Of a stretch of 64,000 nt of DNA, positions 3 through 14,650 are shown one piece after another (the stretch's first letter is position 1; each line of letters opens with the position of its first letter). Where the stretch lies: positions 1-64,000 of the forward strand of contig CACPKA010000004.1 of the NCBI GenBank assembly GCA_902634485.1, written 5' to 3'. This DNA comes from an uncultured Pelagibacteraceae bacterium. Lineage in GTDB: Bacteria > Pseudomonadota > Alphaproteobacteria > Pelagibacterales > Pelagibacteraceae. A program made the position numbers and the translations under genes. Below the pieces are notes generated by a model. The model ran no database searches, was not told the origin of the DNA, and saw nothing but the letters and a program-made list of their open reading frames with translations.

Positions 3-1616
3 TATTATTTTTTATCTTTAATAATTATAATCATTTTTTTTATAAGTATAAATTTAAATATCTATTGGTTTTATAATTTTATAAAAATGATTTTTTCCAA
101 AAAATTATTTAAAAATAATTTGGATAGAGACGAAAATAATGTTAACGAAATTAGTGAAACATCCATTGCTTATGAAAAACCGATACAAGAAGACTTACCT
201 TTTACAAAAATTAAGGATGAAAATAATTTCAAACAAGTAAAATTCAAGTTGCCTATAATTGACTTTTTAAAGTTTCCTTCAAAAACTGAAAGAAAAGAAA
301 ATTTATCAGATAACGCTGTTGATAAAGATTTTTTAGAAAAAATTCTTTTAGATTTTGGTGTAGAAGGGCAAATAAAAAAAATAAGTCATGGTCCTGTTGT
401 AAGTTTAAATGAATTTGAACCTGCGCCTGGCGTTAAAGTTTCTAAAATAATTAATTTATCAGATGACATAGCCAGAAATACTAGTTCAGAGTCTGCGAGA
501 ATTTCCACTATTCCTGGAAAAAATACTATTGGAATAGAGCTACCTAAATCGAAACGAGAATATGTATATTTAAGCGAAATTATTTCTGAAAATAATTTTA
601 AAAATAAAGACATAAAGTTACCAATTGCACTAGGGAAAGATATTTCAGGTTTGCCAATTACTGGTGATTTATCTTCTATGCCACATTTATTAATTGCAGG
701 AACTACTGGCTCAGGTAAATCAATCTGTATAAATACAATTATACTTTCTTTATTATACAGACATACACCTGATAAATGTAAATTTATTTTAATTGATCCT
801 AAAATGCTAGAACTATCGACCTATGAAGGAATTCCTCATTTATTATGTCCTGTAATTACTGAAGCTAAAAAAGCTGCTTCAGTTCTTGGATGGGTCGTTA
901 AAGAAATGGAAAATAGATATAGATTAATGACAAAAGAAGGAGTTAGAAATATAGATGGTTACAATAGTAAACATAAATTACCTATGCCCTACATTGTTGT
1001 TATTGTCGACGAAATGTCTGATTTGATGTTGGTGGCTGGCAAAGAAATAGAAAATTATGTTCAGAAACTATCTCAAATGGCAAGAGCTGCAGGTATTCAC
1101 TTAATTATGGCAACTCAAAGACCTAGTGTTGATGTAATAACCGGCACAATAAAAGCAAATTTTCCAACCAGAATTTCTTTTCAAGTCACTTCTAAAATAG
1201 ATAGTAGAACAATAATCGGAGAACAAGGAGCTGAGCAACTTTTAGGAAAAGGTGATATGTTATATATGTCTTCAGCTAATAGAATAGTAAGAATTCATGC
1301 TCCTTATGTTTCAGAAAGTGAAATTGAAAAAATAAATAATTTTTTAAGATTACAAGCTGAACCAGACTATATAGATGAAATTTTGAATTTTGCAGATGAA
1401 AAAGAAATGGGAGAAAGTTATTTAAGCAATGAAAATAAAGATGAACTGTATAACCAAGCAGTAGAAATAATAAAAACAGAAGGAAAGGCTTCAACCTCAT
1501 TTCTACAAAGAAAATTACAAATTGGATACAATCGTGCAGCAAGAATTATTGACACAATGGAAGCTGAAGGAATAGTCAGCAAGGCTAACCATGTTGGTAA
1601 AAGAGAAGTTCTTTGA
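3..1616 (+). CDS. ftsK: DNA translocase FtsK (5' truncated by window edge)
   Basis: Walker A LLIAGTTGSGKS, DEMSDLMLVAGKEIE, ATQRPSVDVITGTIKANFPTR, C-terminal gamma domain. The frame stays open upstream of the ATG at 87 and encodes hydrophobic residues (YYFLSLIIIIIFFISINLNIYWFYNF), so the real start lies outside the window. Confidence 0.95.
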   Translation, partial: YYFLSLIIIIIFFISINLNIYWFYNFIKMIFSKKLFKNNLDRDENNVNEISETSIAYEKPIQEDLPFTKIKDENNFKQVKFKLPIIDFLKFPSKTERKENLSDNAVDKDFLEKILLDFGVEGQIKKISHGPVVSLNEFEPAPGVKVSKIINLSDDIARNTSSESARISTIPGKNTIGIELPKSKREYVYLSEIISENNFKNKDIKLPIALGKDISGLPITGDLSSMPHLLIAGTTGSGKSICINTIILSLLYRHTPDKCKFILIDPKMLELSTYEGIPHLLCPVITEAKKAASVLGWVVKEMENRYRLMTKEGVRNIDGYNSKHKLPMPYIVVIVDEMSDLMLVAGKEIENYVQKLSQMARAAGIHLIMATQRPSVDVITGTIKANFPTRISFQVTSKIDSRTIIGEQGAEQLLGKGDMLYMSSANRIVRIHAPYVSESEIEKINNFLRLQAEPDYIDEILNFADEKEMGESYLSNENKDELYNQAVEIIKTEGKASTSFLQRKLQIGYNRAARIIDTMEAEGIVSKANHVGKREVL

Positions 1617-3047: not shown

Positions 3048-3316
3048 TTTTTTCTTTTATTTAATTCTTCCATTACATTTTCAATTTTAACATCATTTGC
3101 CTCTAGATACATTATAAGATGATAAAAAACGTCAGCAGCTTCATGAATTATATTATTATTTTTATCTACAGCTTCAATTAATTCATTAATTTCCTCTAAA
3201 ACTTTTTCTTTGCTAAAAGATTTGTCACTTAAAAGTTTATTTGTATATGAATCTTGAACAGGATTATTTTTTCTATCTCTTGCAAGTTTAAATAGGCTTT
3301 CTAAAGTATTTAACAT
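3044..3316 (-). CDS. hisE: phosphoribosyl-ATP pyrophosphatase
   Basis: MazG-like EEINELIEAVDKNNNIIHEAADVFYHLIMYLE, in his cluster. Confidence 0.9.
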   Translation of the reverse strand: MLNTLESLFKLARDRKNNPVQDSYTNKLLSDKSFSKEKVLEEINELIEAVDKNNNIIHEAADVFYHLIMYLEANDVKIENVMEELNKRKK

Positions 3317-9487: not shown

Positions 9488-9900
9488 AAAAATTTAAAGT
9501 ACTAACTCAATTTGTTAAAGATGCATCAAGTGAAACAAAAGATGTTCAAACTTACTTATTTGTAAGAGAATATATTTCAAAATATCAATTAACTATAGAT
9601 ATAACTTCTCAGCCAACAAAAAATAAATTAGTTGAAATTACAACAACTTTAAAATTTGCTGACAAAGACGACAATGCAAAAAAATCTTATTTTGAATTAG
9701 TTTATATAGCTATAGTAAAACTTGATGAAGATCTTAAAGAAAAAAAAGAAATTGAAAAAATTATATTGTGTGAAGTACAAAAAGAAATCCAACCAAAAAT
9801 TGAGAAAGCATTTACAGATTTAATTAATAATTCTGGTTTCGAAAAAGTAACCGTTAAAGATATAGACTTTGATAAACTTTATAACTCAAGATTTAATTAA
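9484..9900 (+). CDS. secB: protein-export chaperone SecB
   Basis: QFVKDASSETKD..., ITTTLKFADKDDNAKKSYFELVYIAI; conserved alphaproteobacterial synteny fxsA-secB-dnaQ. Confidence 0.85.
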   Translation: MKKFKVLTQFVKDASSETKDVQTYLFVREYISKYQLTIDITSQPTKNKLVEITTTLKFADKDDNAKKSYFELVYIAIVKLDEDLKEKKEIEKIILCEVQKEIQPKIEKAFTDLINNSGFEKVTVKDIDFDKLYNSRFN

Positions 9901-11133: not shown

Positions 11134-11924
11134 TAATCTAATAAACTAATTGTTTCGTCGTCTATCTTTGGCATTATTTTATGCCATAAAGTAAATGCTT
11201 GATGAGCTTGATATATAAACATCATTTTGCCATTCTCAATTCTATTTCCAATTTTTTTTGCTTTTTTTAAAAAATTTGTTTCTGTTGGATTATATATAAT
11301 ATCAAAAAAGAATTTATTTAGTCCAATTTTCTCATAATCTAATTTAATTTCATCATTTATTTTTAAACCAATACTTGTTGCATTTATTATCATATCAAAA
11401 TCAGTTATTTTTCCCCAATCTACTATTTCTAGATCCTTGAAATATATTTTTAAATCCTCAGCTCTTTTTTTAGTTCTATTGCTTAAAATTATTTTAGATG
11501 TACCAATTTTTTTTAATGCTAAAATTATTGATGGAACAACTCCTCCGGCTCCTAAAATAAATATTTTTTTATTTTTAGCATCGTATTTTAAATGTCTTAT
11601 TGCAAGTTCAAAACCAGCTATATCAGTATTGTGTCCAATTATTTTGCCATTCTCTTTATAAATAGTATTAACAGATTGAGACTCTTTTGCTTCTGGGGTC
11701 AATTCTTCTAAAAAAGGTATAACTTTATTTTTAAAAGGAACCGTTACATTTATTCCAGAAATATCTCCTCTTTTTACTTCTTCTATTATATTTTTTATAT
11801 CCTCTTCGTTTATTTTTTTCTTTTCATATTCTGCCTCTATATTATTTTTTTTTATCCAATAATTATGGATTTTAGGTGATAAGGAGTGTTCAATTGGATT
11901 TCCAATAACTAAATATTTTTTCAT
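11133..11924 (-). CDS. aroE: shikimate dehydrogenase
   Basis: VIGNPIEHSLSPKIHNYWI, GINVTVPFKNKVIPFL, GHNTDIAGFELAI, LGAGGVVPSII. Confidence 0.97.
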   Translation of the reverse strand: MKKYLVIGNPIEHSLSPKIHNYWIKKNNIEAEYEKKKINEEDIKNIIEEVKRGDISGINVTVPFKNKVIPFLEELTPEAKESQSVNTIYKENGKIIGHNTDIAGFELAIRHLKYDAKNKKIFILGAGGVVPSIILALKKIGTSKIILSNRTKKRAEDLKIYFKDLEIVDWGKITDFDMIINATSIGLKINDEIKLDYEKIGLNKFFFDIIYNPTETNFLKKAKKIGNRIENGKMMFIYQAHQAFTLWHKIMPKIDDETISLLD

Positions 11925-11930
11925 TTTTTT

Positions 11931-12539
11931 TTACATTCCATAATTATTTAAATATTCCTTTATTTTTTTAACAGGCAAGCCCATTATCGTATCCTCGTCG
12001 CCTTCTATTTTTGAAAATAAATTTCTTCCTTCTCCTTCTATTTGGTAAACATTATAAGCATATAATGTACTATCATCAATTTTTGAAAGGTATTTATTTA
12101 ATTCATCTTCATTCATTTTTTTCATAGTTAAAGCTGCTTTGTCAGTATAATTCCAAATCATTGAACCATTTTTTGAAATACAAACTGAACTAATTAAGTA
12201 ATGTTTTTTTCCATTTAATTTTTGAAGTATTTCTATTGCTTCATTTCTATTTTTAGGTTTTGAAATTATTTTACCGTCAAGATCTATCACGCTATCAGCT
12301 CCTAAAACTAATTCTTCACTTTTTTTTATACTCACTTTATTTGCTTTTAGTTCTGCTAAATTTTTAGAAACTATTTCTGGAGAAGCTCCTTCTTTTAATA
12401 AACTTCTTTTTACAGGCTCTTCGTCAATATTAGATAATTCAACAAAACAGTTTATACCATTCTTTTCTAAAATTGTTTTTCTAACTTTGCTTTTAGATGC
12501 TAAAATTATACTTTCGTTATTTTTTTTTTTGTATTTCAT
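11931..12539 (-). CDS. maf: Maf family nucleotide pyrophosphatase
   Basis: IILASKSKVRKTILEKNGI, VLGADSVIDLDGKIISKP; shares about 23 bp with the next gene. Confidence 0.93.
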   Translation of the reverse strand: MKYKKKNNESIILASKSKVRKTILEKNGINCFVELSNIDEEPVKRSLLKEGASPEIVSKNLAELKANKVSIKKSEELVLGADSVIDLDGKIISKPKNRNEAIEILQKLNGKKHYLISSVCISKNGSMIWNYTDKAALTMKKMNEDELNKYLSKIDDSTLYAYNVYQIEGEGRNLFSKIEGDEDTIMGLPVKKIKEYLNNYGM

Positions 12540-13338
12540 AAATTTTTATAACTGATGCAGCCGTTTCTTCTACAGATTTTCTAGTAACATCAACAATTGG
12601 CCAATTATATTTTTTAAATATTTTTTTTGCATCTTCTACTTCTTTAGAAATTAATTCAAAATCTGTATATGTAATGTTTTCTTTTTCCTTAATTGAAGTC
12701 ATTCTATTTCTTCTTATATCTACTAATCTTTGTGGTTCTGCAGTAAGACCTATAATACATGTTAGTTTTGGTTTTTTTTTTAAAATTTCAGGAAGAGAAT
12801 TTTTATTTACTAACGGAATATTAGATGTTTTATATCCTCTGTTTGCTAAATAAATAGAGGTTGGAGTTTTGCTAGTACGGCTAACACCTAATAAAATTAT
12901 ATCTGACTTTGTTACACCTTCTATTAAATTTCCATCATCATGGCTCATCGTAAACTGTATTGCCTCAATTCTATTATAATAATCTTCATCTAAAACATGT
13001 TGTCCACTCTGAATATGAGATGCTTTTTGATTCAATAATTTAGAAAAAGATAAAATTAATTCACCCAATACTCCAAAGCATGGTATTTTTTCTTTTTGGC
13101 TTTTTATATTTAGAATTTTGGCAAGTTTAGTATCAACTATGGTATATAAAATAATACAGTTTTTTCTTTTTTTACATATATCAATTATTTTAACTATTTG
13201 ATTTTCGGTTCTTGTAAAAGAATATTGATAAATTTTATAATCAATCTTATTAAATTGTGCCTTTAGAGCTAAAAAAATTCTATCTAGAGTTTCACCTGTA
13301 GAATCTGAAACTAAATAAATTTCGTATGTATTACTCAT
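12517..13338 (-). CDS. pyruvate, water dikinase regulatory protein (PPSR / DUF299 kinase-pyrophosphorylase)
   Basis: YLVSDSTGETLDRIFLALKAQF, ILLGVSRTSKTPTSIYLANRGYKTSNIPLV. Confidence 0.95.
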   Translation of the reverse strand: MSNTYEIYLVSDSTGETLDRIFLALKAQFNKIDYKIYQYSFTRTENQIVKIIDICKKRKNCIILYTIVDTKLAKILNIKSQKEKIPCFGVLGELILSFSKLLNQKASHIQSGQHVLDEDYYNRIEAIQFTMSHDDGNLIEGVTKSDIILLGVSRTSKTPTSIYLANRGYKTSNIPLVNKNSLPEILKKKPKLTCIIGLTAEPQRLVDIRRNRMTSIKEKENITYTDFELISKEVEDAKKIFKKYNWPIVDVTRKSVEETAASVIKIYEIQKKK

Positions 13339-13627
13339 GTATAATCTGTTTATAACTCTAAGCTATGTGTATCTATATACATAAAATTTAATTTTCTTGT
13401 TTTTTTTAGTGCAAAAAGGAGCATTTATTAACAATATTACACATGTTAATAATTAATATACAGTGTATTAAATTATTAAAAATTAATAACAATTATATAT
13501 GATTTTGCTATTATTTTTACTGTCAAATCACTGTGGATAAATAGTTAATAACATGTTTAAAAAAAATAATTCTCATAATTCATATAACCTAATACTAAAA
13601 CTAAAAGTTTATTTATAATTATTATAT
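13339..13627. other. oriC: candidate chromosomal origin of replication (oriC)
   Basis: Longest non-coding gap in the window, very AT-rich; perfect DnaA box TGTGGATAA (reverse complement TTATCCACA) at 13532-13540; one-mismatch boxes TGTTTATAA 13347-13355, TTATTAACA 13425-13433, TGTTAATAA 13444-13452; sits at the switch from mainly minus-strand to mainly plus-strand genes and next to hemE, as in other alphaproteobacteria. Confidence 0.85.
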
Positions 13628-14650
13628 ATGAGTTCACTAATTCAAAATTGCATAATAAAAAAAAATACAACTAATGTTCCTATTTGGATAATGAGACAAG
13701 CTGGAAGATATTTACCAGAATTTAGAAAAATTAGAAAAGAAAACCCAGATTTTATAGAACTTTGTCTAAATAAAAATTTAACCCCTCAAATAACTTTACA
13801 GCCATTAAAAAGATTTGATCTTGATGCTGCTATAATTTTTTCGGATATTTTAATGTTGCCATATGCACTAAACCAAAAAGTTGAATTTAAAAAAGGAATT
13901 GGTCCTATTCTAGGTGATTTGGAGATAGAAAAATTGTCAGACATAAATGAAAAAGAATTTTATAATAAATTAAAACCAGTTTATGAAGCAATAAATATTG
14001 TATCTAAAGATAAAATGTTAAAAAATAAAGATATGATAGGTTTTGTTGGAGCTCCATGGACTATTCTTGTTTATATGGTTTACAAAAAATCACCTAAGGA
14101 AGTAAAAAACATTAACGATTTATTATTTAATAAAATTAAAAAAGATAAAATTGATATATTAATTTCAATTATAGTAAAATTTTTAAAAATGCACATTAAA
14201 AATCAAGTAGATAATGGTGCAACGATAATTCAAATTTTTGATAGTTGGGCAGGTCTAGTAAACGGTGATTTTGCCATGGATAATTATATATATAAACCAA
14301 CATATGAACTCGTAGATTATGCAAAAAAGTTAGGTGTACCAATTATATGTTTTCCTAGAGGAACCAAAAAATATAAAGAATATTGTAAAATAGTTAAACC
14401 TGATGTAATCAGCATAGATTATGAAATAGATCCAGTAGTAATAGCAAAAGAAATTGACATTCCAATCCAGGGAGGACTAGATCCAAAAATTCTTCTATCA
14501 GATAAAGACAAATTAAAAAAAGAAGTAATAAAATATTTAGAAATATTTAAAAATCATTCTTATATATTCAATTTAGGTCACGGCATAATGCCAAACACCG
14601 AACCTGACATGTTAGATTACTTAGTAAAATTAGTTAAAGATTTTAAATAA
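13628..14650 (+). CDS. hemE: uroporphyrinogen decarboxylase
   Basis: PIWIMRQAGRYLPEFRKIR, AAIIFSDILMLPYAL, GAPWTILVYM, FNLGHGIMPNTEP. Confidence 0.98.
   Translation: MSSLIQNCIIKKNTTNVPIWIMRQAGRYLPEFRKIRKENPDFIELCLNKNLTPQITLQPLKRFDLDAAIIFSDILMLPYALNQKVEFKKGIGPILGDLEIEKLSDINEKEFYNKLKPVYEAINIVSKDKMLKNKDMIGFVGAPWTILVYMVYKKSPKEVKNINDLLFNKIKKDKIDILISIIVKFLKMHIKNQVDNGATIIQIFDSWAGLVNGDFAMDNYIYKPTYELVDYAKKLGVPIICFPRGTKKYKEYCKIVKPDVISIDYEIDPVVIAKEIDIPIQGGLDPKILLSDKDKLKKEVIKYLEIFKNHSYIFNLGHGIMPNTEPDMLDYLVKLVKDFK

Follow-up and report, generated by a model that had tools for sequence, protein, structure and literature searches.

The ppsR–hemE gap and its DnaA-type sites

The window (the whole 64,000-nucleotide stretch of DNA analysed, from an uncultured Pelagibacteraceae bacterium) contains two divergent genes, ppsR and hemE, which are separated by a gap of 289 bp. 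The coordinates of these genes and of the elements identified between them are given in Table 1. An earlier sequence-only reading had proposed this gap as a candidate oriC with four DnaA boxes (B1–B4), and all four match the sequence exactly at the positions listed. The middle two of these boxes (B2 and B3) do form an exact inverted repeat with 9-nt arms and a spacer of 10 nt, and the gene neighbourhood, which had been likened to that of alphaproteobacterial origins, is the same as at the Caulobacter/Rickettsia origin (PMC1914354). The statement that the three imperfect boxes carry one mismatch holds against the degenerate consensus TTATNCACA, but against TTATCCACA there are two mismatches in each of them. 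The list of elements was likewise correct for the four boxes, but it left out an 11-bp-phased array, a reverse box pair, a set of DnaA-trios and an AT tract. A search against Rfam gave no family match in the window.

Table 1. Genes and predicted origin elements at the ppsR–hemE locus (positions are those of the window)
Feature	Position	Strand	Basis
ppsR (Kinase-PPPase, PF03618; COG1806 / RP001 type), left boundary gene	12517..13338	-	Pfam E=4e-86; divergent to hemE in 69/70 family loci
Predicted oriC, entire ppsR–hemE gap, 289 bp	13339..13627		Leave-out nhmmer match 13411-13616, E=2e-13; pooled skew switch at hemE
DnaA box B1, TGTTTATAA, adjoins ppsR	13347..13355	+	Box ≤20 nt from ppsR in 59/69 gaps, ≤1 mismatch to TGTKNATAA
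DnaA box B2, TTATTAACA, left arm of inverted pair	13425..13433	-	B2-type box at same place in 52/69 gaps; alignment
DnaA box B3, TGTTAATAA, right arm of inverted pair	13444..13452	+	B3-type box at same place in 36/69 gaps
DnaA box B4, TGTGGATAA, sole perfect consensus box, opens phased array	13532..13540	+	Position conserved; perfect sequence in 4/69 gaps
Degenerate DnaA box B5, AGTTAATAA, 11 bp past B4	13543..13551	+	Same-strand 11-bp box pairs
Degenerate DnaA box B6, TGTTTAAAA, 11 bp past B5	13554..13562	+	Three-box array frequency in genus group
Possible second box B7, TAATTCTCA, tandem with B8	13567..13575	-	Read from sequence; 3 mismatches to TTATCCACA, weak in window
Trio-proximal DnaA box B8, TAATTCATA, orientation opposite to array	13576..13584	-	Relatives: TTATTCACA / TTATTAACA
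Spacer TAAC (4 nt), box to trios	13585..13588		Fourth nt is C in 77% (69 gaps)
Predicted DnaA-trios, CTA ATA CTA AAA CTA AAA on + (3'-GAT-5' type on -)	13589..13606	-	Triplet periodicity, 69 gaps
AT tract up to hemE, overlaps last trio by 3 nt	13604..13627		G+C 7% mean over 69 gaps vs 18% for whole gap
hemE (URO-D, PF01208), right boundary gene	13628..14650	+	Pfam E=3e-82

The number of DnaA-type sites in the gap was compared with that expected by chance. Boxes of the form TGTKDATAA occur four times in the window gap versus 0.19 times in shuffled sequences (p=0.005), and across the 69 family gaps described below there were 2.45 per gap versus 0.16 in dinucleotide shuffles, a roughly 15-fold ratio that is somewhat flattered, as the motif was picked after the alignment had been inspected. 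Sites with at most two mismatches to TTATCCACA number four in the window gap versus 1.44 expected (p=0.04), which is marginal for the window alone. The compared gaps are related sequences, and shuffle tests of this kind overstate their independence. The count of perfect boxes was also considered as evidence for an origin and was rejected, based upon its lack of both enrichment in the window and conservation: TTATNCACA occurs three times in the window versus 3.6 expected, i.e., at chance level, and TTATCCACA is found 12 times in the 1.04-Mb draft genome.

Conservation of the array and the trio-type element

A search for hemE covered 146 family genomes, and 70 loci were examined for the gap. A divergent ppsR–hemE gap of 261–294 bp was present in 69 of these loci, representing at least 12 genera; in the sole exception (L102) there is no ppsR beside hemE. 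Of these gaps, 27 form the genus group of the window (one of them, L023, belongs to another genus) and 42 make up the rest. At one locus (G131:C5:73510-74500), hemE was split into two matches (169-340 and 5-158), indicating a frameshift or a sequencing error. The expectation that the boxes should be conserved in close relatives is borne out for the gap and its boxes, which are kept across the family, but not for the perfect sequence of the 13532-13540 box, the least conserved part of the origin elements. The further claim of the sequence-only reading, that a single consensus box would make this a minimal origin, does not stand; instead, there are at least six ordered DnaA-type sites plus trios. 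The inverted pair formed by B2 and B3 is moderately conserved, in 14/27 gaps of the genus group and 17/42 elsewhere.

In the window, the array at 13532-13562 reads TGTGGATAA AT AGTTAATAA CA TGTTTAAAA, with the three boxes arranged head-to-tail and separated by 2-nt spacers. Pairs of boxes on the same strand peaked sharply at a distance of exactly 11 bp in the 69 gaps (139 observed versus 22 expected), and at least one such pair was found in 64 of them. The two-box form of this array is present in 26/27 gaps of the window's genus group and in 30/42 of the others; for three boxes the counts are 23/27 and 5/42, respectively.

Between the array and hemE lies an arrangement resembling the basal unwinding system (BUS), which consists of a DnaA box, a short spacer and triplets of the 3'-GAT-5' type with a conserved middle A (PMC8287927). 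Past the trio-proximal box, T peaks at positions +6, 9, 12, 15 and 18 (0.59-0.83) and A peaks at +7, 10, 13, 16 and 19 (0.78-0.96) were observed across the 69 gaps. The trio phase score was 7.96 of 10 versus 4.23 (sd 0.22) in shuffled sequences, with the other phases at background (2.0-2.8); the register comes from an alignment-based profile and is partly alignment-dependent. In 55/69 gaps versus 3.3% of shuffles, an alignment-free scan placed its best match to a box plus trios at this position near hemE, and the same scan gave p=0.10, below significance, for the window alone. The window has three in-register NAN triplets (3'-GAT-5' type), the smallest run that a BUS contains, before AAA breaks the run. 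Its box B8 is degenerate, with three mismatches to TTATCCACA and two to TTATNNACA; in many relatives the corresponding box is TTATTCACA or TTATTAACA, which lies within the BUS limit of at most two mismatches and within 16 nt of the trios. Box B7 is also closer to the consensus in relatives (e.g., TTAACCACA in L079). A search for a box plus trios in 17 other alphaproteobacterial families with a hemE gap showed no consistency under a simple scan; a box followed by CTA-type triplets is visible by eye in some of these other families (L206, L216, L220).

In the draft genome, dnaA codes for a complete protein of 478 aa and is followed by dnaN; the protein aligns over its length to B. subtilis DnaA (8btg) with the box-recognition motif RDHTT kept. 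The regions that correspond to the arginine finger and the ISM isoleucine of B. subtilis DnaA are also retained. The roles named for these residues follow PMC8287927 and common background on DnaA. By analogy with B. subtilis and other bacteria, DnaA would bind the boxes and its oligomer would grow along the 11-bp-phased array (13532-13562) and the reverse box or boxes (13567-13584). From the reverse box DnaA would then be passed over the 4-nt spacer onto the trios of the minus strand (13589-13606) and would stretch the trio strand, upon which the AT tract before hemE would melt. Helicase loading at the AT tract and the departure of two forks would follow. We infer from this scheme that the AT tract is where melting probably starts and where helicase probably enters.

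That the origin opens by this trio mechanism appears probable. An alternative is that it is opened mainly by array-driven melting of the AT tract, in the manner of E. coli, with the triplet motif being incidental. The AT tract does adjoin the array, the array is similar to the arrays of low-affinity DnaA sites in E. coli (PMC4285127), and the trio-proximal box in the window is a poor one. However, both the triplet periodicity and its spacing are conserved over many genera and are kept in genus g9 (see below), and we consider array-driven opening to be unlikely.

Genus g9 and the position of the gap in the genome

In genus g9 (L204, L224-L230), ppsR is followed by rho and not by hemE in 7/7 loci found. 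The hemE of this genus is a divergent copy located elsewhere; in G009 it lies at 718 kb and ppsR at 141 kb (~577 kb apart). All seven g9 gaps nevertheless retain the left box, TGTTTATAA and TGTATA at the array spacing, and a box with CCTAATAATAAAACTA-type triplets. As these elements are kept beside ppsR where hemE is gone, they go with the site rather than with hemE. This genus provides a natural experiment, which suggests that origin function is separable from the neighbouring gene. These observations bear upon the possibility that the elements constitute a promoter or regulatory region of hemE and ppsR, possibly regulated by DnaA, rather than an origin. A divergent gap must house the promoters of both genes, promoter-like hexamers are found in it, and the trio region has TATAAT-like words in some relatives. 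However, the hexamers are at chance level (5 versus 4.8 in shuffled sequences), the elements remain before rho when hemE is relocated, and the constraint is a 3-nt period at fixed spacing to a DnaA box, with the skew switch at the same place. A purely regulatory role is therefore very improbable.

The raw GC skew in the window has its minimum near 46-48 kb and is dominated by gene orientation; hence, strand-corrected third-position skew was used. As the genome of the window is a draft of 38 contigs, the skew was taken from six closed relatives, with 20 stretches from each, covering roughly a third of its sequence. Counted in sixteenths of the genome starting at hemE, the pooled strand-corrected GC3 skew was above zero in the first seven and below zero in the remaining nine. 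The best origin coincided with hemE to within 2% of the genome (random-rotation p=0.001), although the skew in these relatives is weak overall and its resolution is tens of kb. The pooled gene orientation also switches at hemE (random-rotation p=0.001). Among single genomes, the skew was clear in G026, G005 and G077, and weak and only consistent in G003 and G040. In G043, no strand-corrected skew signal was found at hemE, though its gap is typical; this genome could be rearranged or misassembled, or its skew could be plainly weak. The GC-skew check that had been suggested for this locus thus has a favourable outcome in the pooled relatives but not in G043, where no usable signal was obtained at hemE.

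An origin profile (nhmmer), with the genome of the window and the six closed genomes left out of its training set, matched the window gap (Table 1) and other known gaps, and it gave no other match below E=0.06 in the ~2.4 Mb sampled (stretches, not whole genomes). The dnaA gene was single-copy in 11/11 closed relatives searched. Its distance from hemE was 62.5-64 kb in G003, G026, G043 and G077 and 72 kb in G005, and it lay on the hemE side in every case. On contig C21 of G000, which lies outside the window (L071, L072), dnaA matches are mirror-placed at 1159-1365 (+) and 11495-11701 (-), and pattern matches at 3301-3315 (-) and 9545-9559 (+) mirror about the same centre (sums 12860). This contig looks like an inverted duplication that arose in assembly or amplification rather than a contig with two dnaA genes.

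The steady 62-72 kb distance of dnaA from hemE, together with the tens-of-kb skew resolution and the single-genome fits of G003 and G043, which favour other places, might be taken to indicate a true origin elsewhere, e.g., beside dnaA ~63 kb off, but the pooled best fit lies at hemE and the profile found no other match in the ~2.4 Mb of sampled stretches, leaving this with a very small probability.

The predicted origin and its relation to known origins

The candidate oriC is favoured by the agreement of several lines of evidence, viz. the gene neighbourhood, the family-wide conservation of the gap and its boxes, and the pooled switch of both GC3 skew and gene orientation at hemE. Because of its location at a strand switch, its conserved and ordered elements, and the intact DnaA, the ppsR–hemE gap is very probably the chromosome replication origin. 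The reading that best explains the whole, in which the gap is the origin and its DnaA array feeds a trio-type unwinding element, is likewise highly probable based upon the sequence comparisons.

Sites for other regulators were also sought. CtrA sites (TTAA-N7-TTAA) number zero in the window gap and are slightly above the shuffled level in relatives (0.43 versus 0.24). No IHF site was found in the window gap with either consensus, which a diverged site could escape, and in relatives such sites are slightly above the shuffled level. GANTC is lacking in the window gap and is below the shuffled level in relatives (0.03 versus 0.15), and GATC is also lacking in the window gap. Pelagibacter has been reported to be without ctrA (PMC2877005), and origins without CtrA sites are reported, such sites not being obligatory (PMC1914354). 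A tentative and rather doubtful extension is that the SAR11 family origin consists of DnaA elements alone, lacking both a conserved high-affinity DnaA box and any input from CtrA, IHF or adenine methylation, so that timing would be set only by the filling of a phased low-affinity array feeding the trio element.

SAR11-type bacteria, to which the genomes compared here were assigned on gene content, genome size and base composition, rank among the ocean's most abundant cells. No paper dissecting a SAR11 origin was found in the literature searched. A base-resolved origin would give metagenomic origin-to-terminus growth estimates a fixed reference point, and the present one predicts a short scaffold for testing streamlined, DnaA-only initiation.

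The origin of E. coli (PMC4285127) is similar in its head-to-tail degenerate DnaA sites, whereas the period here is 11 bp, GATC is not enriched and no R1/R4-like pair was identified at the flanks. The BUS of B. subtilis oriC and its predicted homologues (PMC8287927, PMC6669920) share with the window a DnaA box, a 4-nt spacer, 3'-GAT-5' triplets and adjoining AT-rich DNA; in contrast, the proximal box of the window and its tandem partner are weak, the site is at hemE and not at dnaA, and it is known here from sequence. A further likeness is to Caulobacter crescentus Cori and the Rickettsia prowazekii ori (PMC1914354), with which the window gap shares the hemE/COG1806 (ppsR) boundary, the intergenic place, several DnaA boxes above chance, and an AT-rich region (mean G+C of 18% over 69 gaps versus 19-32% in 2-kb bins of the window). 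It differs from them in the lack of CtrA and IHF consensus sites in the window gap, in having a degenerate TGTTAATAA-type box set versus the G/W boxes of Caulobacter, and in its length (261-294 bp in this family versus at least 384 bp in Rickettsia and >400 bp in Caulobacter, as quoted in PMC1914354). The coinciding switch of skew and gene orientation in the pooled closed relatives is a feature of bacterial chromosomal origins generally. The predicted origin of the window is thus of the known alphaproteobacterial hemE type, of which it is a new and well-resolved example and not a new kind.
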